Shown here one piece after another: positions 2,047 to 19,803 of a DNA stretch of 20,447 nt. The DNA is from a virus. The position numbers and the translations under genes were made by a program. Positions within the stretch are counted from its first letter, which is position 1. Each line of letters opens with the position of its first letter. The notes under the pieces are model-generated. The model was given only the letters and a program-made list of their open reading frames with translations, was not told the origin of the DNA and did no database searches. The stretch covers positions 1-20,447 of the IMG/VR virus record IMGVR_UViG_3300031963_001136; one strand, given 5' to 3'.

Positions 2047-2928
2047 ATGGCTGAAATCCCCTCATTCTACAAAACCGAGTTTGCGACCAACTGGGAGCAG
2101 GCTTACCAGCAAATGAACTCCCGCATGAAGGGTGCCGTCACGGCCTCTCCCTTCACCGGCGCTCGCAAGTGGTTCAACGAACTCGACCAAACCGAGATGT
2201 CCGAAGTGACTGACCGCAAGGCCGACACTGGCGACGGTGACTCCACCGGCTTCAAGTATTGGCTCTTCCGCCGCAAGTTCCAGTTCGTCAAAAGCTGGGA
2301 CGAAGACGACGCCGTTCAACTCGGCGAAATCACGCTCCCGCAGTCGGACGAAATCATGTCCGCTGCCGCCGCCGAAAACCGCCGCGCCGATGACCTCATT
2401 ATTGAGGCCATGGACGCAACGCGCTACATCGGCGAAAACGGCACCGATTCCGACGCCTTCCTTTCGGCGCAATCCATCGCGGTCAACTACGTGCCTTCCG
2501 GCTCGACGGTTGATTCCGGCCTCACGATGGGCAAGCTCCGCTATGCGAAGCGCCTCTTCGACCTCGCCGAAGTGCCCGAGTCGGAACGCTACCTCGCCTA
2601 CGGTGCGCGTCAGCTCGACGACGCCCTTGGCATCACCGAAGTCACCAGCCGCGACTACAACGACTTTATGGCGTTGAAGGACGGCAAGGTTGACCGCTTC
2701 ATGGGCTTTACCTGGGTGCCTTCTCAGCGCCTCAGCGTGGCGAGCAACGTCCGCAAGGTCGTGGCTTGGCACAAGTCCGGCGTCCGCTTCGCTGACCTCG
2801 AACGTCACGTCCACATCGACGTGCTTCCTGCGAAGTCGCACAAGACCCAGCTTCGCGCCGTCAAGCGCATGGGTGCCGTTCGCGCCAAGAACAAAGGCGT
2901 CGTCCGCATCTACTGCAACGAGCCGTGA
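2047..2928 (+). CDS. Major capsid protein
   Basis: A 293-aa protein that forms the icosahedral shell. Its length, position (scaffold upstream, small head protein downstream) and sequence style match short HK97-fold capsid proteins of Bbp17-like and related podoviruses. The N-terminus is F..EF..NW....QQMNS...G, followed by D.TEMSEVTDRKADT (48-62). The F..KSWDEDDAVQLGEI segment at 79-94 is characteristic, followed by a SDEIMSAAAAENRRADDLIIEAMDATRY spine helix region at 99-126. A WVPSQRL strand lies near 224. No cleavage pro-domain is apparent. No Shine-Dalgarno sequence precedes the ATG; the leader is CTTTCTTCACCTTT. The gene has its own structured leader and its own terminator, so it is probably expressed at a different level from its neighbours. 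Confidence 0.88.
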   Translation: MAEIPSFYKTEFATNWEQAYQQMNSRMKGAVTASPFTGARKWFNELDQTEMSEVTDRKADTGDGDSTGFKYWLFRRKFQFVKSWDEDDAVQLGEITLPQSDEIMSAAAAENRRADDLIIEAMDATRYIGENGTDSDAFLSAQSIAVNYVPSGSTVDSGLTMGKLRYAKRLFDLAEVPESERYLAYGARQLDDALGITEVTSRDYNDFMALKDGKVDRFMGFTWVPSQRLSVASNVRKVVAWHKSGVRFADLERHVHIDVLPAKSHKTQLRAVKRMGAVRAKNKGVVRIYCNEP

Positions 2929-3555: not shown

Positions 3556-4359
3556 ATGACCAAGACTGACATTTTCAACATTGCTCTAGGCCTTATCGGC
3601 GGTAAATCGCTCTCGAATGCTGACACAGACACGACCCCGCAGGCCGTGAGTGGCCGGAAGTTTTGGGAACTGGCGCTCAATGAAGCTCTCAGCGCGCAGA
3701 ACTGGAACTTTGCCACGAAACGCACGCGCCTGAAAGTCACGCGCACGGCCATCACGTCCATTGCCAACAATGGCGGCGTTGTCCGAGTCACGAAAAACTC
3801 GCACGGTCTGGTGACTGACGACCGAGTTGCGATTGAGGATGTACCTTGCGCGGTCGGGTCGTTCTTTGTGACGCGGATCGACGACAACGTTTTCGACCTG
3901 CAAGACAGCGTTTATGCGTCCGGCTATTCGAGCGGCGGAACGTTCCTGAAAATCCCGGCTTTCGGCTGGGACTATCGCCATGCGCTGCCGTCCGATTGCG
4001 TCAAGGTCCGGCGCGTGCTTGATGACCCTGACCGCGACATGGAGGAGAACGATACGGAACCGTTTCGCGTCGAATCAGGCTTCATCTTCTGCGACCTCGA
4101 AACGGCCTTTGTGTCCTACACGTGGCGCAACGAAACAACCTCGACCTATCCGCATGAGTTCGTGGCGGCGCTCTCGACGCTCCTTGCCTCGTATCTGGCG
4201 CAAGACCTCGCTGGACCGGCTGGACGCTCGCAGGAGCTTCGCCAGACCTATGAACGGCTCATGCTGCCGAATGCACGCGGACGTGATGCGCGCGAGGGCA
4301 AGGGCGATACTGACGTGAGCACGACGCAAAGCGAACTCCACAACGCCCGCTTCGCATGA
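3556..4359 (+). CDS. Tail tubular protein A-like (adaptor/gatekeeper), with inserted beta domain
   Basis: A 267-aa protein of the T7 gp11/P22 gp4 type adaptor family, which docks the nozzle to the portal. The family start is clear: DIFNIALGLIGGKS (5-18), then a helix with W..ALNEALSAQNWNFA (38-53). The family continues with W.YRHALPSDCVKVRRVL (138-155), then FVAALSTLLASYLAQDLAG (202-220) and R...RLMLPNARGRDA near the end. Between these, residues 66-133 form an extra module with HGLVTDDRVAIEDV and a GYSSGGTF end. This resembles small beta domains inserted in many phage structural proteins ('v.N.G.v.vt...HGL..gd.V.i'). The gene begins 10 nt after a terminator tail with no clear Shine-Dalgarno sequence and ends in an ATGA overlap with the next gene. 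Confidence 0.85.
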   Translation: MTKTDIFNIALGLIGGKSLSNADTDTTPQAVSGRKFWELALNEALSAQNWNFATKRTRLKVTRTAITSIANNGGVVRVTKNSHGLVTDDRVAIEDVPCAVGSFFVTRIDDNVFDLQDSVYASGYSSGGTFLKIPAFGWDYRHALPSDCVKVRRVLDDPDRDMEENDTEPFRVESGFIFCDLETAFVSYTWRNETTSTYPHEFVAALSTLLASYLAQDLAGPAGRSQELRQTYERLMLPNARGRDAREGKGDTDVSTTQSELHNARFA

Positions 4360-7037
4360 GCATCGCAACCCGAACCTTTCAGGCTTCCTTCAATGGCGGC
4401 GAACTTTCGCCCCTGCTCGACTCCCGGCCCGATGCGGCCATTTACCGCGACGGTTGCCGCGAGCTTCAAAACTGCGTTGTGCGGCCCTACGGCGGAGCGT
4501 TCAAGCGTCCCGGCCTGCAATACGGCGGGGCCGTCAAGACCTCCTCGACGGCGACGCGCTTGATTCCCTTCAAGCGTTCGACCTCGACCAACTACGTTAT
4601 CGAGATGGGGGATAGCTACATGCGCTTTTGGAAAGGCGGCTCTGCCATGACGCGCATTACAAGTGGAACGCCTGTCGAAATCGCATCCCCCTACACGGCT
4701 GCGCAGCTTCAAGCGGTGCAGTTCTGCCAGATCAACGACGTGATGTTCCTTGTGCATCCGTCGCATGCTCCGCGCCGTCTTTCTCGCAATTCGGAGACAA
4801 GCTGGACCCTTGAAGTGTTCCCGTTCGACTTCCCGCCCATGTCGGACATCAACGACACGACGACGACGATCCGCATTCAACCGGGCGTTTCTGCGTGGGC
4901 AACCTCGACGGCCTACACGGTCGGGCAAGTTCGCCTCGAAAGCGGCCTGCTGTATATGTGCGCAACGGCCCACACGTCCGGCACGTTTGCGACCGACCTT
5001 GCGGCCTCGCGCTGGAAAGCAGTTAAGCCTCGCGGGCCTTGGGTGCGCGACGACGACCACGACACCGCCGATATGGTGGACGTGAACGGCACGCGCTATG
5101 TCTGCATTCTCTCGACGGCGGGCCTGATTGCTGGCTCTGGCTACAATGCCAATCCTCGACCCGGCTCCGGTTCCGGCTGGGCTACCTACTGGCTCGCGGT
5201 CGGTGACTCCAATCTTCGCCTCTTTGCCAGTTCCTCGACCTTTTCCGCTGCCGATGTCGGGACGTATTTCCGCATCGACGTAGGATGCTCGAAGCGTTCG
5301 CTTTTCCTGTCCACCAATCACACGGCTGGCGCAACGCACGTCACGGAACCCATGTTCATTGCCGGTGACGCGCTCATTCGCTCGACCATCACAACGACGA
5401 ACTATTCCGGCTATCTGAACGGCGGCGTCAAGGGAGAGCTGTATCTTGAGTTCAGCAAGGACCGTAGCACTTGGGACCGCGTTCGCCATTGGGGCTTCAA
5501 GAACCCGGCAGACGGCAACATTGCCTCGACCTACAACGGCCCCTCGACGGGCGGCTATTACCGCATTCGGTGGGAACCCGGCATTACCTCGACGGCGCGC
5601 GACCAAGGATTTTTGATCGAAGCGACTACCGGCGTCGTGACGGCGCTGGTCAAGATCGACTCCTATGTTTCAGCCACGGAGGTCACGGCCTCCTTTGTGC
5701 TGCCAGACATCACGTTCGCGCCCTGCGAGATTCTGACGCAGGACAATCGGAATTGGTATCGCGGAGCCTTCGGGGCCAACTACCCGCGCGCCGTGGCCTT
5801 CCATGAGGCGCGCCTTTGGTTCGCTGGTGTGTCGGGCGACGCCTCGCGGGCATGGTCTAGCCGCGTCGATGACTTCTATAATTTCTTCACCGGCCCGGAA
5901 GATGACGACGGCATCGACATTACGCTTTCGAGCGTCGAGACAAATCAAATCGAGTGGATGGCCTCGCTTGGCCGGAATCTCGTTATCGGGACGACCGGGG
6001 AGGAGTGGATCATCAACAGCGGCGAATCCGACTCGGTGCTGACTGCCGACAACATGCGCGCCCGCCTGACAACCCGGAACGGCTCCGCGCCGCTTGCGCC
6101 GCAGATGGTGAACGATGCCTTGTTTTGGTGCCCTCGAAGTGCGCGCCGCCTCCATGAGTTCAACTACGATTTCAGCCGCGACGCTTGGAGCGGGTCTGAC
6201 GTGCTGCAATTTGCCGAACATTTGGGCGCTTCGGGCTTGGTCGATATGGACTTTGCGGCCATGCCCGATTCGGTCCTTTGGGCCGTCAATGGCGACGGGG
6301 AGCTTTGCGGCTTCACCTACGACCGACGCCAGAACGTCACGGCATGGCATCGCCACGTCACGGATGGCTATTTCGAGAGCGTCGCGACCATCTACGGAGA
6401 CAATGGACGTGATGAAGTGTGGTTCGTGGTGCGTCGGACCATCAACGGCGCGACGGTTCGCAACGTCGAAAGGTTCTATCCGACCGCGCAGGACTTCGAT
6501 TTCGACACCGCGAGCGATTTCTTCTATGTGGATTCAGGCCTCAAGGTCACGCCCTCGGGAACGTCCATCACGGGCCTTTCGCACCTCGAAGGCAAGGAGG
6601 TCAAGATTTGGGCCGATGGTGCCCGGATCGAGACGAAAACGGTTTCCTCCGGGGCCGTCACGCTCTCGACCGCTGCCACGTCGGCCATCGTGGGCCTTGC
6701 CTATGAGGCCACGCTTCGACCGATGCGCCTTGAAGTCGTGCTAGATGACGGCACCGGGCAGGGGCGGCACTGGCGTCCAAACCGGCTCATTGCCTGCCTC
6801 TACAACTCCATTGGGGGCGAGTTCCGCACGGGCGGCGACTGGACGGCACTGGACTACTCGACCCCCTACGAGCGCGAACAGGCCGACGAACCGGCGCTCA
6901 CAGTCAGGACAGAGCGCATTTCGAGCCACGTCCCGGCAGATTGGGAGGACTCCATCGAACTGCAATTCCGCAGCGCCGATCCCGTGCCTTTTAACTTGCT
7001 CGCATACATTTTGATTCATGAAGTGGAGGGGAAATAA
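4356..7037 (+). CDS. Tail tubular protein B-like (nozzle/stabilisation protein)
   Basis: This 893-aa protein forms the distal short-tail tube. The N-terminus F.ASFNGGELSPLLDSRPD (10-26) with L.NCVVRPYGGAFKRPGL (37-55) is diagnostic of the large podoviral tail nozzle/stabilisation family. The fold is beta-rich throughout. Two adjacent segments, about 178-224 (WATSTAYTVGQV ... YMC ... W) and 235-277 (VNGTRYVCI ... WATYWL), look like the small aromatic-rich carbohydrate-binding type 5/12 modules. The later part has family-like stretches HEARLWFAG, DDFYNFF, GTTGEEWIINSG and DALFWCPRSARRLHEF. It overlaps the preceding stop by four bases (ATGA). No signal peptide or enzyme motif was seen. A long antisense frame across its 5' half is a shadow. 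Confidence 0.88.
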   Translation: MSIATRTFQASFNGGELSPLLDSRPDAAIYRDGCRELQNCVVRPYGGAFKRPGLQYGGAVKTSSTATRLIPFKRSTSTNYVIEMGDSYMRFWKGGSAMTRITSGTPVEIASPYTAAQLQAVQFCQINDVMFLVHPSHAPRRLSRNSETSWTLEVFPFDFPPMSDINDTTTTIRIQPGVSAWATSTAYTVGQVRLESGLLYMCATAHTSGTFATDLAASRWKAVKPRGPWVRDDDHDTADMVDVNGTRYVCILSTAGLIAGSGYNANPRPGSGSGWATYWLAVGDSNLRLFASSSTFSAADVGTYFRIDVGCSKRSLFLSTNHTAGATHVTEPMFIAGDALIRSTITTTNYSGYLNGGVKGELYLEFSKDRSTWDRVRHWGFKNPADGNIASTYNGPSTGGYYRIRWEPGITSTARDQGFLIEATTGVVTALVKIDSYVSATEVTASFVLPDITFAPCEILTQDNRNWYRGAFGANYPRAVAFHEARLWFAGVSGDASRAWSSRVDDFYNFFTGPEDDDGIDITLSSVETNQIEWMASLGRNLVIGTTGEEWIINSGESDSVLTADNMRARLTTRNGSAPLAPQMVNDALFWCPRSARRLHEFNYDFSRDAWSGSDVLQFAEHLGASGLVDMDFAAMPDSVLWAVNGDGELCGFTYDRRQNVTAWHRHVTDGYFESVATIYGDNGRDEVWFVVRRTINGATVRNVERFYPTAQDFDFDTASDFFYVDSGLKVTPSGTSITGLSHLEGKEVKIWADGARIETKTVSSGAVTLSTAATSAIVGLAYEATLRPMRLEVVLDDGTGQGRHWRPNRLIACLYNSIGGEFRTGGDWTALDYSTPYEREQADEPALTVRTERISSHVPADWEDSIELQFRSADPVPFNLLAYILIHEVEGK
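4887..5186 (+). other. Two carbohydrate-binding-like segments inside the nozzle gene
   Basis: Residues about 178-224 and 235-277 of the nozzle protein each have an aromatic-rich pattern: W..S.AY.VG.V, then a YxC strand, then a closing Trp. This pattern is known from type 5/12 carbohydrate-binding and similar phage modules. I infer sugar contact at the host surface; binding has not been shown. Confidence 0.5.
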
Positions 7038-7040
7038 GCC

Positions 7041-7538
7041 ATGGCATTCGCACCCATTTTTGCAGGACTAAGCGCCGCCGCCTCCATCGGGGGACTGGGC
7101 ATGAGCCTTTACGCCAACAAGCAGCAACAGCAGGCCGCCAAAATCGAGGGCGACATGCAGGCGCGCGCGGCGGAGGACGAGGCCAAGCGGAAGCAAATCG
7201 AGCTTGCCGAGAACCAGCGCCGCACGGCCAAGAATCAGGCGGGGGCACGCGCCACGCAGGCGGCCCGCATGGCCTTGAGCGGCACGGGCGGAGGCTCGCC
7301 GCTCTCCATCATGGCCGAGACGCTGACGCTTCAACAGCGCGAGCTTTCTGATACCCAATACGGCGGCGACCTCACGACCCGCGCGTTGACCAACCAAGCC
7401 ACAGATGCCCGCTACGGCGCGGCCTCAAGCGTCGCGGCACTCAAGCAACGCGGGACTGGCCTACTCATCGAAGGCGTCGGCCAGCTTGCGCAAATGGGCT
7501 ACGGCGTGGCTCGCAACTATCCCCGCAAAGCATCATGA
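7041..7538 (+). CDS. Internal virion/DNA ejection protein, gp14-like
   Basis: A 165-aa protein in the T7 gp14 slot. Residues 1-25 are hydrophobic and Ala/Gly-rich (FAGLSAAASIGGLGMSLYA), fitting membrane insertion on ejection. A Gln/Ala/Glu-rich helix follows (26-85), then a GSPLSIMAETLTLQQRELSDTQYGG segment (101-125) and R.LTNQATDARYGAASS (128-143), both typical of this family. It is thought to form the outer-membrane end of the ejection channel. A GGAGG lies 11 nt before the ATG, one of the few Shine-Dalgarno-like sites in the window. The gene ends with an ATGA overlap into the next ejection gene. Family assignment is by pattern and gene order. Confidence 0.75.
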   Translation: MAFAPIFAGLSAAASIGGLGMSLYANKQQQQAAKIEGDMQARAAEDEAKRKQIELAENQRRTAKNQAGARATQAARMALSGTGGGSPLSIMAETLTLQQRELSDTQYGGDLTTRALTNQATDARYGAASSVAALKQRGTGLLIEGVGQLAQMGYGVARNYPRKAS

Positions 7539-9040
7539 GTGCCCGATACCGCAACGGCCAGACTGATTTACTGCAATCCGGCGTTCAACCGCTGGAAACG
7601 GCCCGCATCGCCGCGCCTACCGATGACATCGGGCGCGGCTTGATGAGCCTCGGGGCCAGTGGTGCCCGTGTTTTCGCGGAGTACACGCGAGTCAATGACG
7701 CCCGCGAACTGCTCGAAGCGGAGCAGGACATGCAGAAGGCCGCGAATGACTTTGCGGTTTTCCAGACCCAAAGCCCGGACGAAAAGACCTGGCTCCCGAA
7801 GTGGCAGCAAATTTCCGGCGAACTCGAAAAGCGGAACGGGCAGCGTCGGCTTTCGGCGGATGGTCGTCTCTCGCTCGCGCAGGGTGTGGGCCGCTGGGCC
7901 ACAAACCAAACGGGCCGCGTTCAGGAGCAGGCCTTAAAGCAGACCGCCGCGCGCGCCTTGCAGGCTGGGCAAAATTCCATTAACGCCGCGATTGAGAGCG
8001 GCGATGCCGACCGCGCCCTTGGGGCAATCACGCTTTTGGAGACTTCCGGCACGATCTTTCCCGAACAGGCAGAGGCGATGCGGCAGGATGCGACACGCGC
8101 CCTCAAGACCAAGACGGCGGAAAAGGAGTTCGAGGAGCTTTCCATGATGGCCACGACCAACCCCGCGATGGCGCGAGAGTTGGCCGACGAGGGCGTTAAG
8201 GCCTCTCGCATCTCGGACCTGCAACGGTTCAAGATTAACGCCATGGCCGACCGGCAAGAGGAACAGAACCGCACCGATAGCTTCAACACGTTCCGCCGTC
8301 GCATCGGTGTTGGTGATTTGCCCTCGCCCGACGAACTCAAGGCCGACGCCTCCTTGACGGACCTCGACCGGCAAGAGCTTGTCACGCTCGCGACCTCGAA
8401 GCCCTCAAATGACGAGGAGCTTTTTCAGCGTCAAATCACCGCCATTGGCTCGATGCCCTCGAATGCCGCGCCGTTGGAGCGTGCCAAGTATGAGGCTTTT
8501 CTTGAAGCGAATTTCAGCGGCCCGCATCTCGACCACCTGCGCAGCCTCTACGATGCGCGCTTTGCTTCTGGCGGTGTCGAGGCAGTCCGCACGGCGGAGG
8601 CCTTTCAGGCGCTCGATTCTGCGGCCTTTGATGAGCAGCTTCTTGGAGCCTTCAAGGTCGCCAAAACGGACGAAACCGGCAAGCCGCTGTATCGCAAAAA
8701 GGAGGGCTTGTTCTTCAAGCGTGACGGTCTTTTTGGCGTCAAGGAAGTGCAGCAACCCGCGCAGGAGGAGCCGGTTTTCGAGGAGGATGCGGCCAAGAAA
8801 ACGGAAGTACTGCGCAAGGTCGCCGAAATCAAAGAGACGATCACGCGCGAAGTGAAGGCCGGAACGCTCAAGACCTCCGAAGAAGTCTTTTCACGCATCT
8901 CCTCGCTGGCTCGCGCGCCCATCAATTCCCGCGCTGCCTCCGAAGTCTTGCCCGCTGCCCTGCTGCTCCTTCCTGAAAACACAGGATCGACGCCGCCAAA
9001 CCTTGACGACATCCTGAAAAAGCATGCCCCAAATCCTTGA
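7535..9040 (+). CDS. Internal virion/DNA ejection protein, gp15-like
   Basis: A 501-aa, almost wholly helical, charged protein between a gp14-like and a giant gp16-like gene. The N-terminal pattern fits podoviral ejection proteins: G.Q.LETARIAAPTDDIGRGL, then ASGARVFAEYTRVNDARELLEAEQDMQKA. Next come helical repeats resembling tetratricopeptide-like pairs (NSINAAIESGDADRALGAITLLE at about 150-172, NPAMARELADEGVKASRI at about 210-227). The last 150 residues are Lys/Glu-rich, and the C-terminus (LDDILKKHAP) overlaps the giant gene by 17 nt. It has no membrane segment or enzyme motif. It probably builds the periplasmic part of the ejection channel with the flanking proteins. The start is fixed by the ATGA overlap with the upstream stop. 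Confidence 0.75.
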   Translation: MSARYRNGQTDLLQSGVQPLETARIAAPTDDIGRGLMSLGASGARVFAEYTRVNDARELLEAEQDMQKAANDFAVFQTQSPDEKTWLPKWQQISGELEKRNGQRRLSADGRLSLAQGVGRWATNQTGRVQEQALKQTAARALQAGQNSINAAIESGDADRALGAITLLETSGTIFPEQAEAMRQDATRALKTKTAEKEFEELSMMATTNPAMARELADEGVKASRISDLQRFKINAMADRQEEQNRTDSFNTFRRRIGVGDLPSPDELKADASLTDLDRQELVTLATSKPSNDEELFQRQITAIGSMPSNAAPLERAKYEAFLEANFSGPHLDHLRSLYDARFASGGVEAVRTAEAFQALDSAAFDEQLLGAFKVAKTDETGKPLYRKKEGLFFKRDGLFGVKEVQQPAQEEPVFEEDAAKKTEVLRKVAEIKETITREVKAGTLKTSEEVFSRISSLARAPINSRAASEVLPAALLLLPENTGSTPPNLDDILKKHAPNP

Positions 9041-12000
9041 GAGTGAAGCCTTCGCGCTGGCGCAAGGTGTCGACGCCATGACGCCCGAGAACCAAGCGCG
9101 TGCTGCTGACGTGCTGCGCCGGTATCGGGAGCAGCAACGCGAATACGGTTTGCCTGATTTCCCGACCGCCGAACAGCAACGGCGCGAAGGTGAGGACCGC
9201 TATTTTTCCCTGTTCGACGACTTGAAGAATGTGGATGCCGCCTCGCCGTCGTTCTCGACCGGCCTCCGTCTTTCGGCAAATCCCGATGCCGACCGGGCGC
9301 GGGTCGTCAATACGGCCTTCTTGGCTCGCCAGTATGGCAAGACGGCGGAGGAAGTTTCTCGCGCCTTCCCGTTCTTCCGCGACGACTTCGCGGCCAAGTC
9401 CGGCGCTGAACCAGGCCTCGAAGATGCGGCCTTTTACCAGCATGCCGCCAAGATCGCGAAAGGCCAGAAGGCCGCGCGCGACGTGCAGGAGCGTTCCCTG
9501 AATGAAGGGTTCCGCGCTGCCGTCGAGGGCATGGGGAGCCTTGAAAAGCTCGCCGAAGTCCGCGCGCAGGCGGCAGGCAACACCGATAATGAGATTGACG
9601 CCAAGGCGTTCCTTTCGGCCTACGAGCAGACCCAGGCCGTCATGAGCAGGCACGCGGGTTTCATCCGCGAGTTTTCCGATGCCATCGCGTCCGATATGGA
9701 CGGCGGGCAAGTTGACCTCGGGCCGCTGAACGAAAGGCTTCTCGACCTGCCCGGAACGGAGCGCCGTCTTGTGCTGGCGGCTCTGCGCATGCAGGCCGAA
9801 AAGGGCAGCGAGAAGGTCAAGGAGTCGAAGGGTGGCAAATACGATCTTTTTGCCGGTAAGTTCCTGCAACAGACCGGCGAGGCAGCGGGCCGATTGGCTC
9901 GAAGCGCCGCGATGGATCAGCCACGCATGGAGCGTCTGATTGAATTAGTGCCCTCGTCCGGCGAAGTGCTGGCCTCTGGCGAAATCAAGACTGCTGAACA
10001 GGCCCGCGCCTATGTGCGCGATTCGCTGTTTCGCAGTGATGCGGCGGAGCTTTCGGCCACGATGGCAGGACCGGGCGGCTTTGGGGGTATGCCGGTCGAT
10101 GACGACCGCGTGCGCGTCACGCTTGATGCAGAGGCCCAAAAGCTCATCCGTGACGCCAAAGAGCGAGAATTGAAGCGTCTGCGAGTCCAGAACGAAATCC
10201 GGCAGATTGGCGAAATTGCCGACCCTATCCCGAACGTCTTTGCCTCGACTATTGGAACCAGCGGCGCGGCTTTGGGCCTCATGGCTGGAACTCGCGGCCT
10301 TGCGGCTCCGGCGCTTTGGAATGCCTACACGAACATTGAATACAACGATCTGAGCTTGAAATACCCGCAGATGACCAGCGCGGACAAGAAGCTCGTCGCT
10401 GGCGTTTCCGCTGCCGTTCAAACGGCGCTCGATTACGTGGGCGTGAAGGCGCTCAACAAGCTGCCCGGTATCAAGAGCCTCGTTTCGCAGCCGTTCACGC
10501 GTCAGCTTGCGGCGCGCGCCTTGGCTCGCGGTGGCGTCTCGTTCGCGTCTGAAAACGTCGTCGAGGCCGCGCAGGACATCGCAACGCCTGCCATCATCGA
10601 AGCCCTGCGGGTGGACGCTCCAGGCTTTGATGCAGCGGCGGAGGCTCGCGACTTCTGGAAGGGCCGCGCCGATGTGGCGATTGGGCTGCTTCCATTGACG
10701 CTCCTCGGCATTGGGGCCGCGTCCGTGAACGAGTATCGCGGCGCGAAAGAACTGCTGACGTGGAACGACCAACTCGGGGCCGCTGGCGTGGTGGAGACGG
10801 ATCGCGCCGCCATCAGCGAGGCCGCACAAGCGGGCGACGTGGCGAAGGCGCAAAGTCTGCTCATAGAAGCCTGGGGCCGTCGTTCGCCCGAAGTCGCCGC
10901 CGAATATCAGGACGCCATGAGTCAGCGCCAGAACGACCTCGCCAGCGCGACGGCGGAGCTTGAACGCCTTGGCGCCATGCCGACCCTCGCCCGCGATGCG
11001 GACGGCTGGACGGTGACGAGCGACGGCAAGACGGCCAAGTTTGCGACATGGGAAGAGGCGCGAGAAGTCGCGACCGCTGCCATGAATGACTTGGAGCAAA
11101 AGCAAATCCTTCTCGCGACTGAGCTAACGGATCGCCTGCTAGGCGGCAAGTTTGGCGACCTTCAAGAAACCTCTACCTTGAGGCCACAAGAAGAAACGCT
11201 GGGCGACAACGTTCGCGAAGGCACCCTGACGGCTGAGACAGCTATGGAGGCGGCGGTTGCTGGCGGGATCATCAAGGGCGTCACAATGTCGGAAGCTCGT
11301 GCCATTGCGGGCGAGGTTTTTGGCGATAACCCCAGCGAGCGGGCTATGCGCTTTCGGGAAGATGTCGAATCCGCTGTTATTCTTGGGCGCAACGAAACGG
11401 CGGGCGGCGTCTCTCGCAGCACAATCAATCTGGCCGACAACAAAGCCGCGTTCCTGACCGCATTGGAGGAACCCCTAGAAGGTCGAGTTAAGCACGGTCT
11501 AACGACGGGCGTTTTTCGCCGCGAGTCTTTGGCGAAAATCATTCAAGGCGTCGAACAGGCCACGGGCGAAACATTCCTCGAAGGCTCGACATGGGATGAA
11601 ATCGCCGCTTCATCGGAAACCGCTCCGCGCCCTCTCATCGAGGCTATTTCCCGCGTCATTGTTGCGGATGTCTTTGGACGCATGAAAGAAGGTAAATGGT
11701 TTGCGCCCGGATCGGCTTCCAAGTCCTTGAATCTGAACGACCGCGAACAGTCGGCCTTTGCCGCTATCCTCAAGATGTTTCGGGATTACTTGGTCGCTGT
11801 TTTGCGCGCGGCCTCGAAGCTCGCCAAAGCACGCCAAGAAGGCAAGCTAGGCGGCGAATACGATGCTCTTTTTGATGCTCTCACGGGTGGCAGTTCGCAG
11901 CTTGAGCACGATGCAGGCGCGACCAAAGAGGCGGACGCCATCGCGGCGGAGGCCGTCGATACTTCCGGCTATTCGCCCGAGAATCCGGGGCCGAATGGCG

Positions 12001-15000
12001 AGACGTTTTCTTTGTCGGCGAGCGAGATCATCACGCCGGAAAATAAAGTTGCTGATAGTATCATGGGCAAGCCTGCCGCCGATATTTTCGCCGAAGTAAA
12101 AAAACGTCATGGTGTAACTCGGTCCATTTATGAGGCTGGTTACATTCTGCCGGATGGAACAATGCTTGATTTCTCAGGACGTGCAGACGCAGGCGATTTT
12201 AAGCAAGGACCGGATTTGATTTTTAGGCCAACAGGCGGGCGCGATTGGATGAAGGATCAACGCGGAGTAGATCATCGCGAAATTGAATGGCAGGATATGC
12301 CAAGTTATAAAGAGACATGGGAACCAATGGTTGCCTTTCTCCGGCTCGGAGCCGTGCGCGTAGATGCTAACAGCGGCATGATTTCTATGCACAGTCGAGC
12401 CAAAATCACTGCTGCTCAGGCATCGGCCCTTAAATCCATTGTTGTTGCTGCGGACGGCGCATATATTGACCTTGAGGATGACGCAAGAAATCGTTCCTCG
12501 ATGCAATTAAACGGCGGCAAGTGGGGCAAGGTGAATGGATTGCTGACACGGTGGGCAAATGGAGAAACTCCACAATTTGAGGGCGAAACCTTCTCCATCC
12601 GCGCCGTCTCTTCAGCTGATGCTCGGTTTCGTTTTGATGGCATCGCTAAAGAAGATCCAATTAACGACGGCAGTCGAGTTGGGACAGCATGGCAAGGTAA
12701 AGTCAAACCGACCACGCAAGACACCAACAACGGAATTGCCACGGTGACACCAAAGGGACTGAAAAAGCAGATGGGAATGCTAACCCAATTTATCGACGGC
12801 GTCCCCCTTCCAAAATATATCACGGACTTGACCGACCCAACAGAGAGGATGAGAGCATTCATCGCTTTCCAAAAGGGAAATCTTTTGGCGCTTTATGATG
12901 CTTTTGAAAAGTTATCGCCGGATTACGTTGTCAGATCAACTCACTGGTATGATGGGGCAAGACTAATCGCTGAAAGAATTCGTGATTCATATAATCTGAC
13001 CGTTGAGCAGTCGTCTGCAATTATTGCAGTCTTCAGCCCGATGAAAGATTGGTTCCAAAATGTAGCAATGGGACAGCGGTTTGCTGACATCATGGCAAAC
13101 TACAAGGACACTGTAATTACCAATAAAGGGATGCGCGGAGCAGTTGATGAAATGGTCAATGCTGCCGAGAATGGAAAGTATCTCAATGATGCGCTCAAAT
13201 TCATTGATGGTCGCACCATTGCTGATTTGCTAACGGACAAGTCTGAAGGTGGCAGGAAATTGGCGGCGGTTGCGGTTAGGCTTTTATCTACTCACGTTCA
13301 CGGTTTGACGCATGATGTGCTAACTCCCGAAGGTGAATCAATGGGAGTGCGGAAAAACCTTGATGGTTCAAACAAGAAAATGGTTTGGCAGTCCTACGCT
13401 TTTATCGTGAAAGCTATTTCCATTTACGAGAATGGCAGTCTTGAAAACATTTCAGAGACACTTGGAACTGAGCATAAGATTCGCAATTTTTACAACAACA
13501 TCATTTCACCAACATCTCCTTTTGGGGATGCCACTGTGGACACTCATGCAGTCAATGCTGCGGTTTTGTTTCCGATGGGGGGCAGTGCATATTTAACGAC
13601 TTTAAACTTTGGCGAGGCTGGCATGGCTGGAGGTGGCAACTCTGGCTTATATTGGCTTTTTCATGAGGCACTCCGTGAGGCAGCAGCAGAACGTGGCGTT
13701 CTCCCGCGTCAGATGCAGTCCATCACCTGGGAGGCAATTCGTGGATTGTTTCCAGACACCATGAAGCGCAACAAAAAATTTGTTGCTAAGATTGTCGATA
13801 TCTGGGAATCTTCACCAGATGCTGAATCTGCTAGATCTCGAATCCTTGAACTGGGAATCACTCCACCCGAATGGGCAAGAGTGGGTTCCAGTGTTGTTGG
13901 AAGCGAGGCAGGGATGGCAGGAAATCTTGGGCAAGCAATTGACTCCGAAAGAAGTGTTCGATCTGGAATTCGACAAGGACGCAAAAGCGGACCTTCTAGC
14001 GCAAATGTAGGTCAATCCTTTTCCCTCCGTCCCGGCGATTTTGCCGCCCGCATGGAGGCCAAGTTTTCGCTTTTTCAGGCCAAACCGGAATTGCGCCTTG
14101 CCATCGCGCAGGTTGCAAAAGAGCGAGCTTTGCGTCTCGGTGCCGAGTGGATCGCCAAAGGTGACGTGATCCGCACCGCTAAGGACATCGGCAAAGAGCA
14201 GGCATTCCGCGAGGCTGACGGCTTCGACCGGCGCATGAAGGCCTATCTCGATGGCCTTTCCGAAAATGCACGTCAGACGCTCGAATTTGAGCCGTCCGCG
14301 CTCGAAGATGACACGCTCGTTTCGGCCATGCTGGACTTCGGCAAGCTCATGTCGTTCACGACGGCGAAGCGTTCCGGCAAGGTCGAGGCCAAGAGCGGCG
14401 ACTACGACGGCCAGCCGTGGCTTCCTGCCTCCTTCTTCTCGAAGGGCGCAGGCATCATGCCGGACCAAATGGCGCAGGCCATGAGCGACCAAGGCCTAAT
14501 CCCTGACGCCTACACGGACACGCTTTGGGCTGAACTCGGGAAGCGCATCGAAGCGACCCGCAAAGACAAGGCTGCGCATCGTGAGGCCGTGCAGTCCTAC
14601 AAGGACGCGCAGAAAGCCGCGAAGGCAGAAGCCAAGGCGGAGGCGGAAGCCTGGGCAAATCAGGCCCGCAAGACAGCCGGAAGCCCGAAGGCGCAACGCG
14701 ACATGCTGAAAGCAGCCCTTCGCACGCTGGACGGCATCCTCGCCGCCGCTCCGCCCGAAGTCCGCGCCCGTGTGGGCGGATACGTGAAGCTCGCAGGTCT
14801 GGCGACCGACGAGGCCATGTTGGCCGAAATTGAACGCCGTATCGACAAGATGAACCGCGAGCTTGAGAAGTATCTCAAGAAGGAAGGCCGCGCCGAACTG
14901 ACGCGACTCTTCAAGAAGGCGGCTCCAAAGAACGAATCCGGCGAAAAGGCACAAGGCAAGATTGGCCCCGAGTTCCACGCATGGTTTGCCCTCGCGGAGT

Positions 15001-17303
15001 CGGCGGCGGAAATGTCGCCCGAGAAAGCAGACGAGGCTATCGTTGCGGCAGAGCAGGCACTTGAGGCCGACGTTACCGCCGCGCAGCTTGCGGGTCTGTC
15101 TGCATGGCTGGGCCGCGAAGTCTCGGATTTGGACGAGGCCCGGACCTTGCAGGACATTCGCCTTACGGTGCTTCAAACGTTCGGCAGCACGCTTTACAGC
15201 ACGGACGCGCAGGCACCGCGCAACGCCGCTGAAATCATGGCTGCGGTCGATGCCGCCAAGGAGCAGTACATCAAGGGTCGCGTGACCCATCTCGAAAAGA
15301 TGGCGGCTCGTCGCGAGCGTCGTCAAGAATGGCGCACAAAGGGCATTGCGTTGGTCGGCGGTGCCGCAACGGGAGATTCGGTGCGCGGCCAAATGGCCCG
15401 CAGTCCTTCCGACCTCAAGCGTCTGGCGTCGGACTACCTCGACACCGGCCTTGATGCCAGCGGCTTTTTCCGCTCGCTACTCGGGGAGGGCGACCTTTAC
15501 CAGACCGTCCAGCGCTCCATCTTGGAGGCCGACGCCCAAGAGCAAGACGCCATGAAGGCGCGACGCGCTGAGTTCGCGAGGCTGCTCAAGAGCACGTTTT
15601 CGGGTGGCAAAACGGCACGTCTGCGCGGCCTTTGGGAATTGCAGCGAATCCAAGAGGGAACGCCGCTCGGCACCTTCTCGCAAATGCAGGCCGTGCAATT
15701 TACGCTCTGGTTTCAAGACCTCGATTCCCGCGAATGGCTGGCCTCTCACGGCTACGGCGAGGAGTGGCAGGCCAAGGCGGAGAAATGGCTGACGCCAGAA
15801 GCCAAGAAAATCCGCGCTTGGCTGCTCGAAAAATACGGCCAGCAATACGACCGCATCAACCCTGTTTTCCGCGAGCTGCGAGGCGTCAACCTGCCGCGCG
15901 TGGAGGCCTACGGCGGCATGCGCCAAGTCGAGAACATGGGCAAGGACGGCAGCGTTGCCCTCACTGCTGACAACATGGCGGGCGGCATGGCGGCGGGCTT
16001 CACAAAAACGCGCGTCTCGTCTCCGACTGGACCGCCTAAAAACGTCGATGCGCTGGCGAACTATTGGGGCAATGCCTTTCAGGTCGAGCACTACATCGCA
16101 TGGGCTGAACCGTTGGCCGAAATGCGCGCCGTCGTGGGCCATCGCGACTTTCGCATGGCCGTCGAATCCAACCTTGGAGCGGCCAAGAGCGCGCAAATGA
16201 TGCGTTGGATTGACGATCTGGAGAAGTCCGGCCAGCGAAACGCCATCATGAACACCCTGAGCGGCGACTTGATGCAGCGATGGGGGAGCGCCGCCTCCGC
16301 GTCGGCCCTATTGTTCAAGGTCGGGGTTCTGTTGAAGCAAGCAACCGCCGCGCTCGGTAGCGCCTTCAAGGTGGGCCTCGGCAGCTATGCGCGCAGTCTT
16401 GGCCGGGTGCTTTCGGGTAGTTCCTCGATTTCGCTCCGCGAGGCGTGGAATAGCGACTCCGTGCAACGCCGCATCAATGACTATGATCCCGAGATGCGGG
16501 AGGCCTTTCAGGCCCACCAAAAGCGCCGGTTCGAGAACGAAATCCTCGATGTCCTGACCCAATACCCAAATCGAGCACTCGAAGGCGGATGGTATGCCAT
16601 CGGGTTCACGGATGCGGTTTTCACGACCGTTAGCGCGGCGGTCGCGCATGACGCATCCTATCGCGAAGGGCTGGCGGCAGGGCTGAACAGCGAGCAGGCA
16701 ATGGCCTACGCGGGCGAGCAAATGACCCTGATCGTCAAGGAGACGGCGCAACCCGACAGCACGGCGACGAAATCGCAGTTCGAAAACTCGGTCGGCAATC
16801 CTTGGCTCCGTGTCATTTTCGCTTTCCAGAGCGCGAACCGCCAGGCTTTCGGCCTGAGCCTGCTATCCTACAAGCACGGCGACAAGTTCGCGTCTCGCCT
16901 GATCCTCGGGCATCTCATCATCCCCATCGTCTCGCAGACCATCGGGAACATGATCCGCGACGGCTTCACGGATGCGGACGATGATGAAATTTGGACGCTC
17001 AAGGGCTATCTGGCCTCAATGCTCCTCGGGCCGTTCTCTGGCGCGTTGCAGCTTGGGCCGTTGCTCGAAGTTCTGGCGCAGAAAACGTTTGGCGCTGAAC
17101 CGCGAGTTGCTTCAAATCCTGCGGCCACGGCCCTTACGGCGCTTGGCTCCATTCTCGAAGGCGACTTCGACAGCGGCGACATTGGCCGGGTCGTTACGGA
17201 ATTGAGCAACATTCTCGGCGGTCGAGCCTCGGCGACGGGCGCGGGCTGGAACATCATCCGCCAATTGCTCGGCTTGCAGGAGAACGCCGAAAACGACCAG
17301 TGA
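9024..17303 (+). CDS. Giant polyvalent ejection protein (2759 aa)
   Basis: One uninterrupted 2759-aa frame in the T7 gp16 slot. Segments in order: 1-330 charged helices; about 406-433 and 551-568 hydrophobic, likely membrane-interacting; 600-990 charged helices, with no HExxH or lysozyme motif seen; 995-1189 module A; 1190-1665 module B, glycosylase-like; 1666-1960 a common polyvalent module (GDFAARMEAKF, later GDYDGQPWLP and GIMPDQMAQAM). About 1848-1884 is an Ala/Lys/Glu coiled coil. From about 2270 comes the C-terminal domain shared by large phage polyvalent proteins (INPVFRELRGVNLPRVEAYG, then ALLFKVGVLLKQA), with hydrophobic stretches near 2627-2690. It probably travels in the capsid and is ejected with the DNA, carrying enzymes into the host. 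The start overlaps the gp15-like gene by 17 nt and has only a weak GAAAAAG upstream. Domain names follow recalled family patterns and were not searched. Confidence 0.85.
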   Translation: MPQILESEAFALAQGVDAMTPENQARAADVLRRYREQQREYGLPDFPTAEQQRREGEDRYFSLFDDLKNVDAASPSFSTGLRLSANPDADRARVVNTAFLARQYGKTAEEVSRAFPFFRDDFAAKSGAEPGLEDAAFYQHAAKIAKGQKAARDVQERSLNEGFRAAVEGMGSLEKLAEVRAQAAGNTDNEIDAKAFLSAYEQTQAVMSRHAGFIREFSDAIASDMDGGQVDLGPLNERLLDLPGTERRLVLAALRMQAEKGSEKVKESKGGKYDLFAGKFLQQTGEAAGRLARSAAMDQPRMERLIELVPSSGEVLASGEIKTAEQARAYVRDSLFRSDAAELSATMAGPGGFGGMPVDDDRVRVTLDAEAQKLIRDAKERELKRLRVQNEIRQIGEIADPIPNVFASTIGTSGAALGLMAGTRGLAAPALWNAYTNIEYNDLSLKYPQMTSADKKLVAGVSAAVQTALDYVGVKALNKLPGIKSLVSQPFTRQLAARALARGGVSFASENVVEAAQDIATPAIIEALRVDAPGFDAAAEARDFWKGRADVAIGLLPLTLLGIGAASVNEYRGAKELLTWNDQLGAAGVVETDRAAISEAAQAGDVAKAQSLLIEAWGRRSPEVAAEYQDAMSQRQNDLASATAELERLGAMPTLARDADGWTVTSDGKTAKFATWEEAREVATAAMNDLEQKQILLATELTDRLLGGKFGDLQETSTLRPQEETLGDNVREGTLTAETAMEAAVAGGIIKGVTMSEARAIAGEVFGDNPSERAMRFREDVESAVILGRNETAGGVSRSTINLADNKAAFLTALEEPLEGRVKHGLTTGVFRRESLAKIIQGVEQATGETFLEGSTWDEIAASSETAPRPLIEAISRVIVADVFGRMKEGKWFAPGSASKSLNLNDREQSAFAAILKMFRDYLVAVLRAASKLAKARQEGKLGGEYDALFDALTGGSSQLEHDAGATKEADAIAAEAVDTSGYSPENPGPNGETFSLSASEIITPENKVADSIMGKPAADIFAEVKKRHGVTRSIYEAGYILPDGTMLDFSGRADAGDFKQGPDLIFRPTGGRDWMKDQRGVDHREIEWQDMPSYKETWEPMVAFLRLGAVRVDANSGMISMHSRAKITAAQASALKSIVVAADGAYIDLEDDARNRSSMQLNGGKWGKVNGLLTRWANGETPQFEGETFSIRAVSSADARFRFDGIAKEDPINDGSRVGTAWQGKVKPTTQDTNNGIATVTPKGLKKQMGMLTQFIDGVPLPKYITDLTDPTERMRAFIAFQKGNLLALYDAFEKLSPDYVVRSTHWYDGARLIAERIRDSYNLTVEQSSAIIAVFSPMKDWFQNVAMGQRFADIMANYKDTVITNKGMRGAVDEMVNAAENGKYLNDALKFIDGRTIADLLTDKSEGGRKLAAVAVRLLSTHVHGLTHDVLTPEGESMGVRKNLDGSNKKMVWQSYAFIVKAISIYENGSLENISETLGTEHKIRNFYNNIISPTSPFGDATVDTHAVNAAVLFPMGGSAYLTTLNFGEAGMAGGGNSGLYWLFHEALREAAAERGVLPRQMQSITWEAIRGLFPDTMKRNKKFVAKIVDIWESSPDAESARSRILELGITPPEWARVGSSVVGSEAGMAGNLGQAIDSERSVRSGIRQGRKSGPSSANVGQSFSLRPGDFAARMEAKFSLFQAKPELRLAIAQVAKERALRLGAEWIAKGDVIRTAKDIGKEQAFREADGFDRRMKAYLDGLSENARQTLEFEPSALEDDTLVSAMLDFGKLMSFTTAKRSGKVEAKSGDYDGQPWLPASFFSKGAGIMPDQMAQAMSDQGLIPDAYTDTLWAELGKRIEATRKDKAAHREAVQSYKDAQKAAKAEAKAEAEAWANQARKTAGSPKAQRDMLKAALRTLDGILAAAPPEVRARVGGYVKLAGLATDEAMLAEIERRIDKMNRELEKYLKKEGRAELTRLFKKAAPKNESGEKAQGKIGPEFHAWFALAESAAEMSPEKADEAIVAAEQALEADVTAAQLAGLSAWLGREVSDLDEARTLQDIRLTVLQTFGSTLYSTDAQAPRNAAEIMAAVDAAKEQYIKGRVTHLEKMAARRERRQEWRTKGIALVGGAATGDSVRGQMARSPSDLKRLASDYLDTGLDASGFFRSLLGEGDLYQTVQRSILEADAQEQDAMKARRAEFARLLKSTFSGGKTARLRGLWELQRIQEGTPLGTFSQMQAVQFTLWFQDLDSREWLASHGYGEEWQAKAEKWLTPEAKKIRAWLLEKYGQQYDRINPVFRELRGVNLPRVEAYGGMRQVENMGKDGSVALTADNMAGGMAAGFTKTRVSSPTGPPKNVDALANYWGNAFQVEHYIAWAEPLAEMRAVVGHRDFRMAVESNLGAAKSAQMMRWIDDLEKSGQRNAIMNTLSGDLMQRWGSAASASALLFKVGVLLKQATAALGSAFKVGLGSYARSLGRVLSGSSSISLREAWNSDSVQRRINDYDPEMREAFQAHQKRRFENEILDVLTQYPNRALEGGWYAIGFTDAVFTTVSAAVAHDASYREGLAAGLNSEQAMAYAGEQMTLIVKETAQPDSTATKSQFENSVGNPWLRVIFAFQSANRQAFGLSLLSYKHGDKFASRLILGHLIIPIVSQTIGNMIRDGFTDADDDEIWTLKGYLASMLLGPFSGALQLGPLLEVLAQKTFGAEPRVASNPAATALTALGSILEGDFDSGDIGRVVTELSNILGGRASATGAGWNIIRQLLGLQENAENDQ
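12006..12590 (+). other. Module A of the giant protein (residues 995-1189), exchangeable domain
   Basis: This module is bounded by ETFSLS (993-998) and ETFSIR (1188-1193). It contains AGYILPDGTMLDFSG, DHREI, and LRLGAVRVDANSGMISM, then Q.SAL..IV and a YIDLEDD end. I recall this 'GY.LPDG..LDFSG ... DHR ... GAVR' pattern from many large phage polyvalent proteins, where its function is unknown. The DNA is more AT-rich than upstream, starting near 12,040. Confidence 0.6.
12591..14018 (+). other. Module B of the giant protein (residues 1190-1665), helix-hairpin-helix DNA glycosylase-like
   Basis: This module runs between FSIR (1190) and FSLR (1666) in DNA richer in A+T than its flanks. Residues 1308-1360 include WYDGARLIAERI and IIAVFSPMKDWFQNV. 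After a helical stretch comes LGTEHKIRNFYNNI with K1485, then VDTH with D1506. Endonuclease III-type glycosylases have a LPGVGRK Lys and a VDTH Asp 18-19 residues apart, after an 'IAVLLSAQ' helix, and the order here is the same. Base-excision or DNA-binding activity is inferred. A related uncharacterised phage domain without activity is the main alternative. Confidence 0.5.
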
Positions 17304-17505
17304 CCAGACATCCGGTGCCGTAGCCGGTGGCGAAAATGCCGGGAAGCAGGATAATGCATCCGATGATGCCCTTGCCGGTGCCCTTGCGCATCGTTCCGTC
17401 CAACGTGTCCCGGCTCGCGTCCGCGCCAAGCAGGAACACGACGGGAAGCCAGAAGAGAAACCAGAAGGTAAGCCAGATTTTCACGCCGCAAGTCTGCCCT
17501 GACAT
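17254..17505 (-). CDS. Small two-helix membrane protein, holin-like candidate
   Basis: An 83-aa protein on the opposite strand, the only convincing minus-strand gene. Residues 8-27 (VKIWLTFWFLFWLPVVFLLG) and 46-68 (IIGCIILLPGIFATGYG core) are strong membrane segments. They are joined by a basic loop (R32, R40, K41, K45), and the tail is basic too (RFRR). Third codon positions are mostly C or G, as in the + strand genes, which supports real coding. Its 3' end overlaps the last 50 nt of the giant gene tail to tail. No good Shine-Dalgarno sequence precedes the ATG; a GTG at codon 8 is an alternative start. Holins have this size and shape, but the reversed orientation would be unusual. A superinfection-exclusion or other membrane protein is also possible. 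Confidence 0.55.
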   Translation of the reverse strand: MSGQTCGVKIWLTFWFLFWLPVVFLLGADASRDTLDGTMRKGTGKGIIGCIILLPGIFATGYGTGCLVTGRFRRSPASRAIGG

Positions 17506-17556
17506 TCCGAAGCTGTCCAGTGTAGAAAAGCCTGCGGTTCGGTGAATAGGAAACGG

Positions 17557-17589
17557 GCACGGTTTCTCCCGGTGAAGGAAAAACCGTGC
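17557..17589. promoter_or_regulatory. 9-bp inverted repeat
   Basis: GCACGGTTT (17557-17565) is a perfect inverted repeat of AAACCGTGC (17581-17589), with 15 nt between. It lies 52 nt upstream of the minus-strand membrane gene. It could be an operator or an mRNA hairpin in that gene's leader; no T-run follows on either strand. Confidence 0.55.
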
Positions 17590-17809
17590 GCTGCGTGTAC
17601 GGAGCCATGAGGTTTCCGAGCACTTGCGCTGAGACAGCCCACGGTTGACCAGAATAACAGGCTGTTGTCTCAACGGGTTCCGCCGCCTCTCGGGCAGCAG
17701 TCAATTTTACGGCTCCTTAAATCGCAGTCAGGGAGCCACCGTTGCAATCAGTCTTTGCCAAGTGACCTCCTTTTCAGGTGAGAGTGTTGGCGCTAGAACG
17801 ACCCCAAAC

Positions 17810-17843
17810 AAAAAGCCGACCTCTGGCAGATGATCGGCTTTTT
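17810..17843. terminator. Bidirectional intrinsic terminator
   Basis: AAAAAGCCGA (17810-17819) pairs with TCGGCTTTTT (17834-17843) across a 14-nt loop. The A-run and T-run give a U-tract in both directions, and the minus-strand reading continues as TTTTTGTTT. It can stop read-through from the giant gene on + and any transcript entering from the right on -. Confidence 0.8.
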
Positions 17844-17956
17844 GCGCTGCCCCCTTTGGGTTCGTGCGCTTTATGGGCGGACGCTCCTGCCAGAGAGCAA
17901 CCTATCGTTGTAGGGTTCTATCGGGTGAATCTCCTTTCGGAAAGTCAATCGCGATT

Positions 17957-18010
17957 TCACGCACTTTTTCCGGGGTTTGCCCCAAAAGTCACGCAGTTTT
18001 TCCGGGGTTT
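17957..18010 (+). repeat. Two 22-nt direct repeats, 32-nt period
   Basis: Copies at 17957-17978 and 17989-18010 differ at one base only. Each begins TCACGCA, has a T-run and ends CCGGGGTTT. The spacing is three helical turns, which would place two bound proteins on the same DNA face. Confidence 0.85.
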
Positions 18011-18025
18011 ACTTGGGCTTGGCCG

Positions 18026-18133: not shown

Positions 18134-18415
18134 ATGACCAACGCGGCTTTTCTCTCCTCCGTTCAAACCAGTGGCACCGGCACGAATTTCGTTACGCTTC
18201 CGTCCTCCATCTGCAACGCCGTTCATGTCCTGAATGGGACCGGCACAACTCTTGCGTTCAAGCGCGGAAGCGATTCGGCTACCTTTGAGATTCCGACCGG
18301 CTCAGGCTATTCGTTCTACGGCATCACAAACGCGAACCAGATTTCCTTCAAGCGTGCCGATGACTCGAACACGCAAGTCACCCTCAAGAGCATCGAAGCC
18401 GAATACGAATCATGA
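18134..18415 (+). CDS. Small beta-rich protein preceding the spike esterase
   Basis: A 93-aa protein, unrecognised as a named family. It is Thr/Ser/Asn-rich and likely all-beta: FVTLPSSICNAVHVLNGTGTTLAFKRG, then ATFEIPTGSGYSFYGI and ISFKRADD. The sequence alternates polar and hydrophobic residues as in phage baseplate or tail-attachment proteins. I chose ATG 18134; a TTG at 18128 in frame would add two residues. No Shine-Dalgarno sequence is present. A TTGACA occurs at 18099 but lacks a matching -10 box. The gene ends in an ATGA overlap with the SGNH gene, so the two are probably coupled and act together, perhaps as spike adaptor and spike. Confidence 0.7.
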   Translation: MTNAAFLSSVQTSGTGTNFVTLPSSICNAVHVLNGTGTTLAFKRGSDSATFEIPTGSGYSFYGITNANQISFKRADDSNTQVTLKSIEAEYES

Positions 18416-19803
18416 TTCACTCCGCCAAATTCGGCGGGATTAACCGCCCGCGCAGGCGTCCGCGATTTGTGACAAGCGGCAGTTCAACTTTGCCTGAAAC
18501 GCTTGAATACATTACGCGATTGGTTGCGGCGGGCGACAGCCTGACGAGCGAACAGACCACGGCGCTGAATACGTGCATCGACACCTTGAAAACAGGGGGC
18601 GTGTGGGATTTGCTGGACGAGGTTTATTGCTTTGGCGGAAGCACGCTGGCGGGCCAAAAAGTAAAGCTCAAATACGCCTCGGGCAACGCAGACACGTTGA
18701 CGACGTTTAACATGACCAATGCTGACGCCTCCATGACGGGCGGCTTTGGTCCGGGCGCTACCAATGCCAACAAGTATGCGACAACGGGCTACATCCCGGC
18801 CAGCTATTCCCGCACTTACACGGATTTTAGCTATGGGGTTTCGATGCTTGGACAACCCAGCGCGGGCGGTGGTAATGGTAATTTTATCAATGACACGCCG
18901 GTTTCGACGATCTTTAAGCTGACTCTGAACCCCAATTATGGCGGGCTGTGGCCGACGATTGCCAACACTTGCGTTCCCGGTCAGATCAATGGATTTCACA
19001 GTTACTCACTGACCAGCAGTGGGCAGCGGCGCGGGATCGACGATGCAATTGTAGATTTGTCAACGCACGCTCAAACGCCTACGTTTCCAACGCAAATCAG
19101 CCTTTGGCGCAGCGCGTTCAATAGCAGCACCGATTTTGCCACCGGCAAGATGGGCTTTGCCTTTGTGGGCGCAGGTTTGACCGATGCGCAGCAGCGAACA
19201 CTCGGCGGCGCGGTTCGCGCTTTGGAATACGCTTGGGGGCGGCGCTCCGCTCCGAATGGTCGCATTGTGTTTATGGGTGACTCAATCACTCAAGGGTCAA
19301 ATGCTTCTCCTGTCTATACAGCGCGCTTTGGGTCGCTGGTTGCGGCCTCGGCTTCTTTGCTAGAAATCAATCTCGGCGTTCAAGGGGGGAAATTGATGGG
19401 CACAGCGGGTAGCTCACTCAAGAATCGCTACGGTGACGCCTTGTTGGCGACGCCGCAAAAGGTGGTCATCATGATCGGGACGAACGACGCGGCCTCTGTT
19501 TATTCGAGTCAGTTCCGCACGGATTATGACACCGTTCTGAGCGGGCTCATCAGTGGCGGCATGAGCGCGGCTGACATCGTGGTTTGCTCGTTGCCGTTTT
19601 GCACCAATACCGGAGCGCGGCCACAAGCCAATCAACAGCTTTATGCAGATGCGGCGTCTGCTGCTGCGGCGGCGGTTGGGGCTGTGTATGTGGATATTTT
19701 TGCACTGACGCTCGCAACCCCCAGCTACATTTCAGCCGACACCATTCACCCGACGACAGCCGGTCACGCTGCTATTGCAACTGCCATTTCTGCTGCGCTA
19801 TGA
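18412..19803 (+). CDS. SGNH/GDSL-family esterase, probable tail spike or fibre deacetylase
   Basis: This 463-aa protein has two parts. Residues 1-280 are beta-rich with many Thr, Gly and Asn. They contain ATTGYIPASYSRTYTDFSYG and a GFAFVGAGLTDAQQRTLGGAVRALEYAWGR end, which looks like the tail of a lectin/laminin-G-like phage domain. Residues 284-463 are an SGNH hydrolase: GDSITQG with nucleophile S291, NLGVQGG with G322, GTND with N358, and DTIHP with D443 and H446. All four conserved blocks are present, so activity is likely; the substrate is probably an acetyl or acyl ester on surface polysaccharide. No signal peptide is present, which fits a virion protein. ATGA overlaps join it to both neighbours. 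It could instead be a lysis-related esterase. Confidence 0.82.
   Translation: MIHSAKFGGINRPRRRPRFVTSGSSTLPETLEYITRLVAAGDSLTSEQTTALNTCIDTLKTGGVWDLLDEVYCFGGSTLAGQKVKLKYASGNADTLTTFNMTNADASMTGGFGPGATNANKYATTGYIPASYSRTYTDFSYGVSMLGQPSAGGGNGNFINDTPVSTIFKLTLNPNYGGLWPTIANTCVPGQINGFHSYSLTSSGQRRGIDDAIVDLSTHAQTPTFPTQISLWRSAFNSSTDFATGKMGFAFVGAGLTDAQQRTLGGAVRALEYAWGRRSAPNGRIVFMGDSITQGSNASPVYTARFGSLVAASASLLEINLGVQGGKLMGTAGSSLKNRYGDALLATPQKVVIMIGTNDAASVYSSQFRTDYDTVLSGLISGGMSAADIVVCSLPFCTNTGARPQANQQLYADAASAAAAAVGAVYVDIFALTLATPSYISADTIHPTTAGHAAIATAISAAL

Follow-up and report, generated by a model that had tools for sequence, protein, structure and literature searches.

A predicted HhH-GPD DNA glycosylase module within a giant, probable ejection protein of a phage with a T7-like virion gene block

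Do some phages send a DNA glycosylase into the cell together with their genome? The question is raised by a 20,447-base virus record (IMG/VR IMGVR_UViG_3300031963_001136, positions 1 to 20,447), referred to here as the window, which carries a T7-like virion gene block on the + strand, as identified from its ORF list and PHROG profile matches (Table 1). An earlier note on this DNA had described an endonuclease III-like (Nth-like) module inside a virion ejection protein; the protein in question is 2759 aa long and its gene lies at the T7 gp16 position. Polyvalent ejection proteins are known, as are HhH-GPD glycosylases, but neither their combination nor a fold-level function for the family concerned, DUF7178, was found in the searched literature. 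A literature search for DUF7178 itself found no paper, and one phage paper in which 'internal virion protein' and 'DNA glycosylase' both occur deals with a T4-type pyrimidine-dimer enzyme that is unrelated.

The module and its family

Pfam detects a sole domain in the 2759-aa protein, DUF7178 (PF23802; E = 1.6e-23, 84.1 bits against a curated cut-off of 27), and the module is also a member of PHROG 3842; no function is assigned to either family. Because the region matches DUF7178 at this level, the Lys/Asp pattern that first drew attention to it is more than chance. The motifs reported in the earlier note were recovered at the same positions of ORF 9024-17303, with IIAVFSPMKDWFQNV at residues 1333-1347, LGTEHKIRNFYNNI, including K1485, at 1480-1493, and VDTH, including D1506, at 1505-1508, and the Lys-Asp gap is 21 residues as first claimed. 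The span originally given to the module (12591-14018, residues 1190-1665) is indeed bounded by successive FSIR/FSLR linkers, but the homologous module is narrower, at about residues 1210-1620.

Table 1. Features of the virion gene block and of the DUF7178 module (residue numbers refer to the 2759-aa polyprotein)
Feature	Coordinates	Strand	Evidence
Major capsid protein	2047..2928	+	phrog_3437, E 3.3e-53
Tail tubular protein A-like	3556..4359	+	phrog_394
Tail tubular protein B-like	4356..7037	+	phrog_376, E 3.4e-175
Cys-free internal virion protein at the gp14 position	7041..7538	+	phrog_418, E 1.2e-7
501-aa protein, gp15 position, 0 Cys	7535..9040	+	Gene order
2759-aa Cys-free polyprotein, T7 gp16 (internal virion/ejection protein) position	9024..17303	+	Synteny
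DUF7178 module (1210-1620), predicted HhH-GPD DNA glycosylase fold	12651..13883	+	Pfam, AF2, Foldseek
Helix and loop IIAVFSPMKDWFQNV (1333-1347)	13020..13064	+	S1338, P1339, W1343, N1346 invariant
Insertion of ~100 residues (1360-1457)	13101..13394	+	Invariant R1419, P1435, W1455
KA helix ...IVKAISI... (1458-1469)	13395..13430	+	Alignments, AF2 model
Helix-hairpin-helix (1473-1494): helix, turn G-T-E, helix from H1484-K1485	13440..13505	+	DSSP on AF2 model
K1485, predicted Schiff-base nucleophile	13476..13478	+	65/65 embedded; aligned K in 58/58 stand-alone
D1506, predicted catalytic Asp of HhH-GPD motif (TVDTH)	13539..13541	+	65/65 embedded; aligned D in 58/58 stand-alone
C-terminal motif RQMQSITWEAIR (1562-1573)	13707..13742	+	Q.xITW core common to stand-alone relatives
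Tail-fibre/hydrolase-like protein	18412..19803	+	Weak PHROG tail/hydrolase matches

The same module is present in hundreds of other phages. An IMG/VR scan with six peptides, none of which contained K1485 or D1506, returned 226 encoded relatives, and 80 loci were kept. The conservation expected of catalytic residues was borne out, since neither K1485 nor D1506 varies in the 65 distinct phage homologues, whose identity falls to about 36%; H1484, R1487, F1489, N1492, T1504, T1507 and H1508 are likewise invariant. A separate genome scan used patterns that included the HK motif, and lysine conservation in that set is left out of the evidence.

Most of the 124 annotated phage records feature DUF7178 as a stand-alone protein of ~200 aa encoded by a separate gene, unlike the window, where it forms a single module within the 2759-aa polyprotein. 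The hosts of these phages include Mycobacterium, Streptomyces, Microbacterium, Synechococcus and Roseobacter, among others, and a few depositors have labelled the gene 'glycosylase' or 'N-glycosylase/DNA lyase'. K120 and D138 are invariant in the stand-alone sequences, and a profile-profile alignment of the embedded and stand-alone forms (99.6% probability) places K1485 on K120 and D1506 on D138. Large DUF7178 proteins were also observed in bacterial assemblies of Bradyrhizobium (L196, L197 and L200), Pseudofulvimonas (L189) and Jannaschia (L190), where they probably represent prophages.

Predicted fold

The AlphaFold2 model of the window module (60 sequences; pLDDT 92.0, pTM 0.90) comprises a helix at 1473-1480, a short turn, and a helix at 1484-1494 with K1485 at its second position; D1506 immediately precedes, and caps, helix 1507-1514. 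When this model was compared with the PDB by Foldseek, the best match was Pa-AGOG (1xqp, probability 0.85); among the other matches listed, Pfu AGOG ranked 18 (probability 0.30) and the rest were low-probability, mostly helical proteins. For the stand-alone homologue L100 (AlphaFold2 pLDDT 95.1, pTM 0.90), ranks 1-16 were all 8-oxoguanine DNA glycosylases (MjOgg, Pa-AGOG, TmOgg, SsOgg and OGG1), with probabilities of 0.91-1.00 and TM-scores of up to 0.62. Foldseek E-values were 0.015 or above, and the fold call is based on the probabilities, the TM-scores and the fact that the best matches are all of one kind. An HhH-GPD fold is thus predicted for both forms, most clearly for the stand-alone one, as the earlier note had anticipated, and on these models residues 1210-1620 almost certainly adopt it; this grading, like those of activity and delivery below, is our judgement.

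The superfamily feature of a helix-hairpin-helix followed by a conserved Asp is present in the AlphaFold2 model and in the alignment, as is the hairpin Lys of bifunctional members, represented by K1485 and its stand-alone counterpart. Relative to the LPGVG hairpin signature, the first glycine is kept (G1481, 94%) and the second is replaced, with the hairpin shape still predicted in the model. The Lys-Asp gap in Nth is 18 residues. In Pab-AGOG it is 32 (K142 and D174; PMC9638937), and since the gap varies in the superfamily to this extent, the 21 residues found here are no objection. The hairpin lysine of bifunctional HhH-GPD enzymes serves both the glycosylase and the lyase steps (PMC9638937); the invariance of this lysine therefore points to a glycosylase/lyase, and we regard the modelled module as probably active in both capacities.

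The relationship to Nth itself is less direct than first proposed. By eye, FSPMKDWFQN, IVKAISI and HK...VDTH of the module can be matched to LSAQATDVSVN, NSKAENI and RK...VDTH of E. coli Nth; in this reading the IIAVFSPMKDWFQNV helix and loop are the positional counterpart of Nth LLSAQATDVSVN, and the KA helix, which corresponds to the xxKAxxI helix of stand-alone relatives, is also that of Nth YNSKAENI. Sequence profiles lend this match no support, with hhalign of the module against a seven-sequence Nth-type set giving less than 1%. The module likewise has no match to the Pfam HhH-GPD profile PF00730 or in NCBIfam, and no real match emerged when PDB sequences were searched with the module itself, with an alignment of it or with two alignments of stand-alone members. 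The four-cysteine Fe-S cluster of Nth is also absent, because there is no cysteine in residues 1210-1620. The endonuclease III-type order of motifs holds at the level of the predicted HhH-GPD fold, but in structure the module comes closest to 8-oxoG glycosylases of the OGG2/AGOG type rather than to Nth, and since no sequence profile links the module to Nth, it appears to be a distant OGG2/AGOG-like branch. It resembles OGG2 (MjOgg, TmOgg and SsOgg) and AGOG in its predicted all-helical HhH-GPD fold, its HhH lysine, the Asp before the next helix and the lack of Fe-S cysteines, and differs from them in having no detectable sequence similarity, no second hairpin glycine and, in the embedded form, a ~100-residue insertion. 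This insertion region (1360-1457) is far shorter in stand-alone relatives.

Probable delivery and possible roles

The 2759-residue polyprotein contains no cysteine but 43 tryptophans, so a general shortage of rare amino acids does not by itself account for the absence; the two preceding proteins are also cysteine-free. In a set of 69 carriers, 12 of 137,042 residues are cysteine (0.009%), compared with 0.36% for the remaining long ORFs of these loci and 2.5% (299/11,726) where DUF7178 stands alone, although the carriers are mutually related (single-linkage clustering yields one group) and these counts are not independent samples. Cysteine is also missing from three ejected proteins, T7 gp15, T7 gp16 and N4 vRNAP (over the 3342 residues analysed), whereas the portal and several tail proteins of T7 and N4 contain some. 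Internal virion proteins of StenR_269 and Zobellviridae have been described as lacking cysteine too (PMC10747016). The near-complete loss of cysteine from embedded as opposed to stand-alone forms may offer a simple sequence marker for ejected phage proteins. Ejection of an enzyme of giant size is possible, as N4 vRNAP demonstrates, and that enzyme is believed to refold once in the cytoplasm (PMC12633501). The polyprotein shares its gene position, giant size and lack of cysteine with T7 gp16 and N4 vRNAP, but has no sequence match to them, and their cargo differs, being an endolysin-type domain in gp16 and an RNA polymerase in N4.

A domain search of relatives revealed ART-PolyVal and LPD38 domains, and a weak GNAT match, in related carriers. 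All three belong to the polyvalent-protein toolkit (PMC5512222), and on account of ART-PolyVal and LPD38 the related carriers can be classed as polyvalent proteins. Like the polyvalent proteins described from phages and from conjugative elements, the window protein is a giant multidomain putative effector within a virion gene block; unlike them, its own Pfam content is DUF7178 alone, and the partner domains are found in its relatives. The polyvalent-protein paper of Iyer et al. 2017 (PMC5512222) nowhere mentions a glycosylase domain. Because of the gene order, a cysteine absence like that of ejected proteins and the polyvalent architecture of relatives, we consider it very likely that the polyprotein is delivered with the phage genome, on support that is circumstantial but strong.

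The module also differs in conservation from its surroundings. Its core is 65-86% identical to those of three related carriers, with most flanks at 20-30%, and against L002 the module is 98-100% identical, with identity dropping to 17-75% outside. By these comparisons the module behaves as an exchangeable cassette. We lean towards the general view that an active glycosylase/AP lyase is injected with the phage genome as an exchangeable part of polyvalent ejection proteins, so that bases would be excised on entry, ahead of phage gene expression, either for repair or to attack DNA of the host or DNA that is modified. On this view, DNA would be edited or defended by phages while it enters the cell; if true, base excision joins the known activities of polyvalent proteins, and the widespread DUF7178 acquires a testable function, both as a small gene of marine and actinobacterial cultured phages and as a module of injected giants.

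As to the target, we slightly favour a bifunctional glycosylase/AP lyase, delivered by the virion, that acts on the entering phage DNA. The polyprotein would be packaged in few copies, threaded through tail and envelope, and refolded at the inner membrane. K1485, activated by D1506, would then attack C1' of a flipped-out base, which would be excised through a Schiff base, and the strand would be nicked by beta-elimination. The likeliest target would be a lesion such as 8-oxoG in incoming phage DNA, met before any phage gene is expressed, and host enzymes would complete the repair. Entering phage DNA is favoured since an enzyme present in few copies where the DNA comes in would be well suited to rare lesions on a passing molecule, and since free phage suffers oxidative and UV damage. 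Against repair, a lyase-based pathway needs host polymerase and ligase; against the explanation as a whole stand the lack of Nth-type profile similarity, Foldseek E-values of at least 0.015 and the missing second glycine of LPGVG.

The same delivered enzyme may instead attack host, competitor or defence-modified DNA, acting as an entry effector that leaves abasic sites and nicks to the advantage of the phage. We hold this reading as tentative, though as a target such DNA is nearly as plausible as that of the entering phage, because of the conflict-type partners and the left-end stand-alone copies: carriers also hold ADP-ribosyltransferase and possibly acetyltransferase domains within a polyvalent class built for conflict (PMC5512222), and stand-alone copies lie among small unknown genes at the left end of the T7-like phages S-CBP2 and P12053L. 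Swapping of the module between carriers as a cassette would also fit an attack, but few copies per virion are expected by analogy with gp16, and the enzyme would have to act on something that the phage's own DNA lacks, a substrate of which no example is known.

Two further readings would dispense with base excision. HhH motifs bind DNA non-specifically, and the module may be catalytically idle, retained in the ejection channel only for DNA binding or for structure. T7 gp15-gp16 binds DNA, according to a title cited in PMC12633501. We find an idle domain improbable, given that the Lys and Asp are invariant in embedded and stand-alone forms, that the same domain stands alone in most of the 124 phage records, and that the module is conserved far above the surrounding channel regions. 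Phages have reused the glycosylase fold for thymine hypermodification, and the module may be a base-modifying rather than base-excising enzyme, comparable to the amino acid:DNA transferases of phages (ADDT, PF18724; matched by Pseudomonas phage M6 gp51 at 2.3e-48). We find this about as improbable as an idle domain: hhalign of DUF7178 against ADDT gives 0.1-0.3% probability, the module has no Pfam ADDT match, the two hairpin signatures differ, Microbacterium phage Cece has a stand-alone DUF7178 yet no ADDT match, and an enzyme arriving with the virion would be at work before there is any modified DNA.

Other features of the locus

Directly N-terminal of the DUF7178 module, residues 1000-1185 (12021-12578) form a separate conserved-looking domain (YILPDGTMLDFSGR...DHREIEW) with only a weak match, to PHROG 9837. 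Part of it matches L040, where it is placed after DUF7178, in swapped order. FS(L/I)(S/R) linker motifs occur three times in the polyprotein at domain edges (12006-12017, 12591-12602 and 14019-14030; residues 995, 1190 and 1666), and also ~97 aa upstream of the DUF7178 domain in L004 and L073. The FSLR/FSIR linkers are not put forward as cleavage sites, as they are not enriched across relatives (14 found vs 10.6 expected).

Two close relatives differ from the window in and around the module. L002 has an in-frame TAG inside the module (near 6184) where the window has CAG, and L001, otherwise almost the same as the window, lacks ~103 bases just past it (~14030-14132; near 7139 in L001); these are either sequencing or assembly errors or real variants. 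Between the polyprotein and the next ORFs, ~820 bases (17304-18127) contain no convincing gene, and the tail-fibre-like protein beyond them features an SGNH/GDSL-type hydrolase motif, FMGDSITQG.
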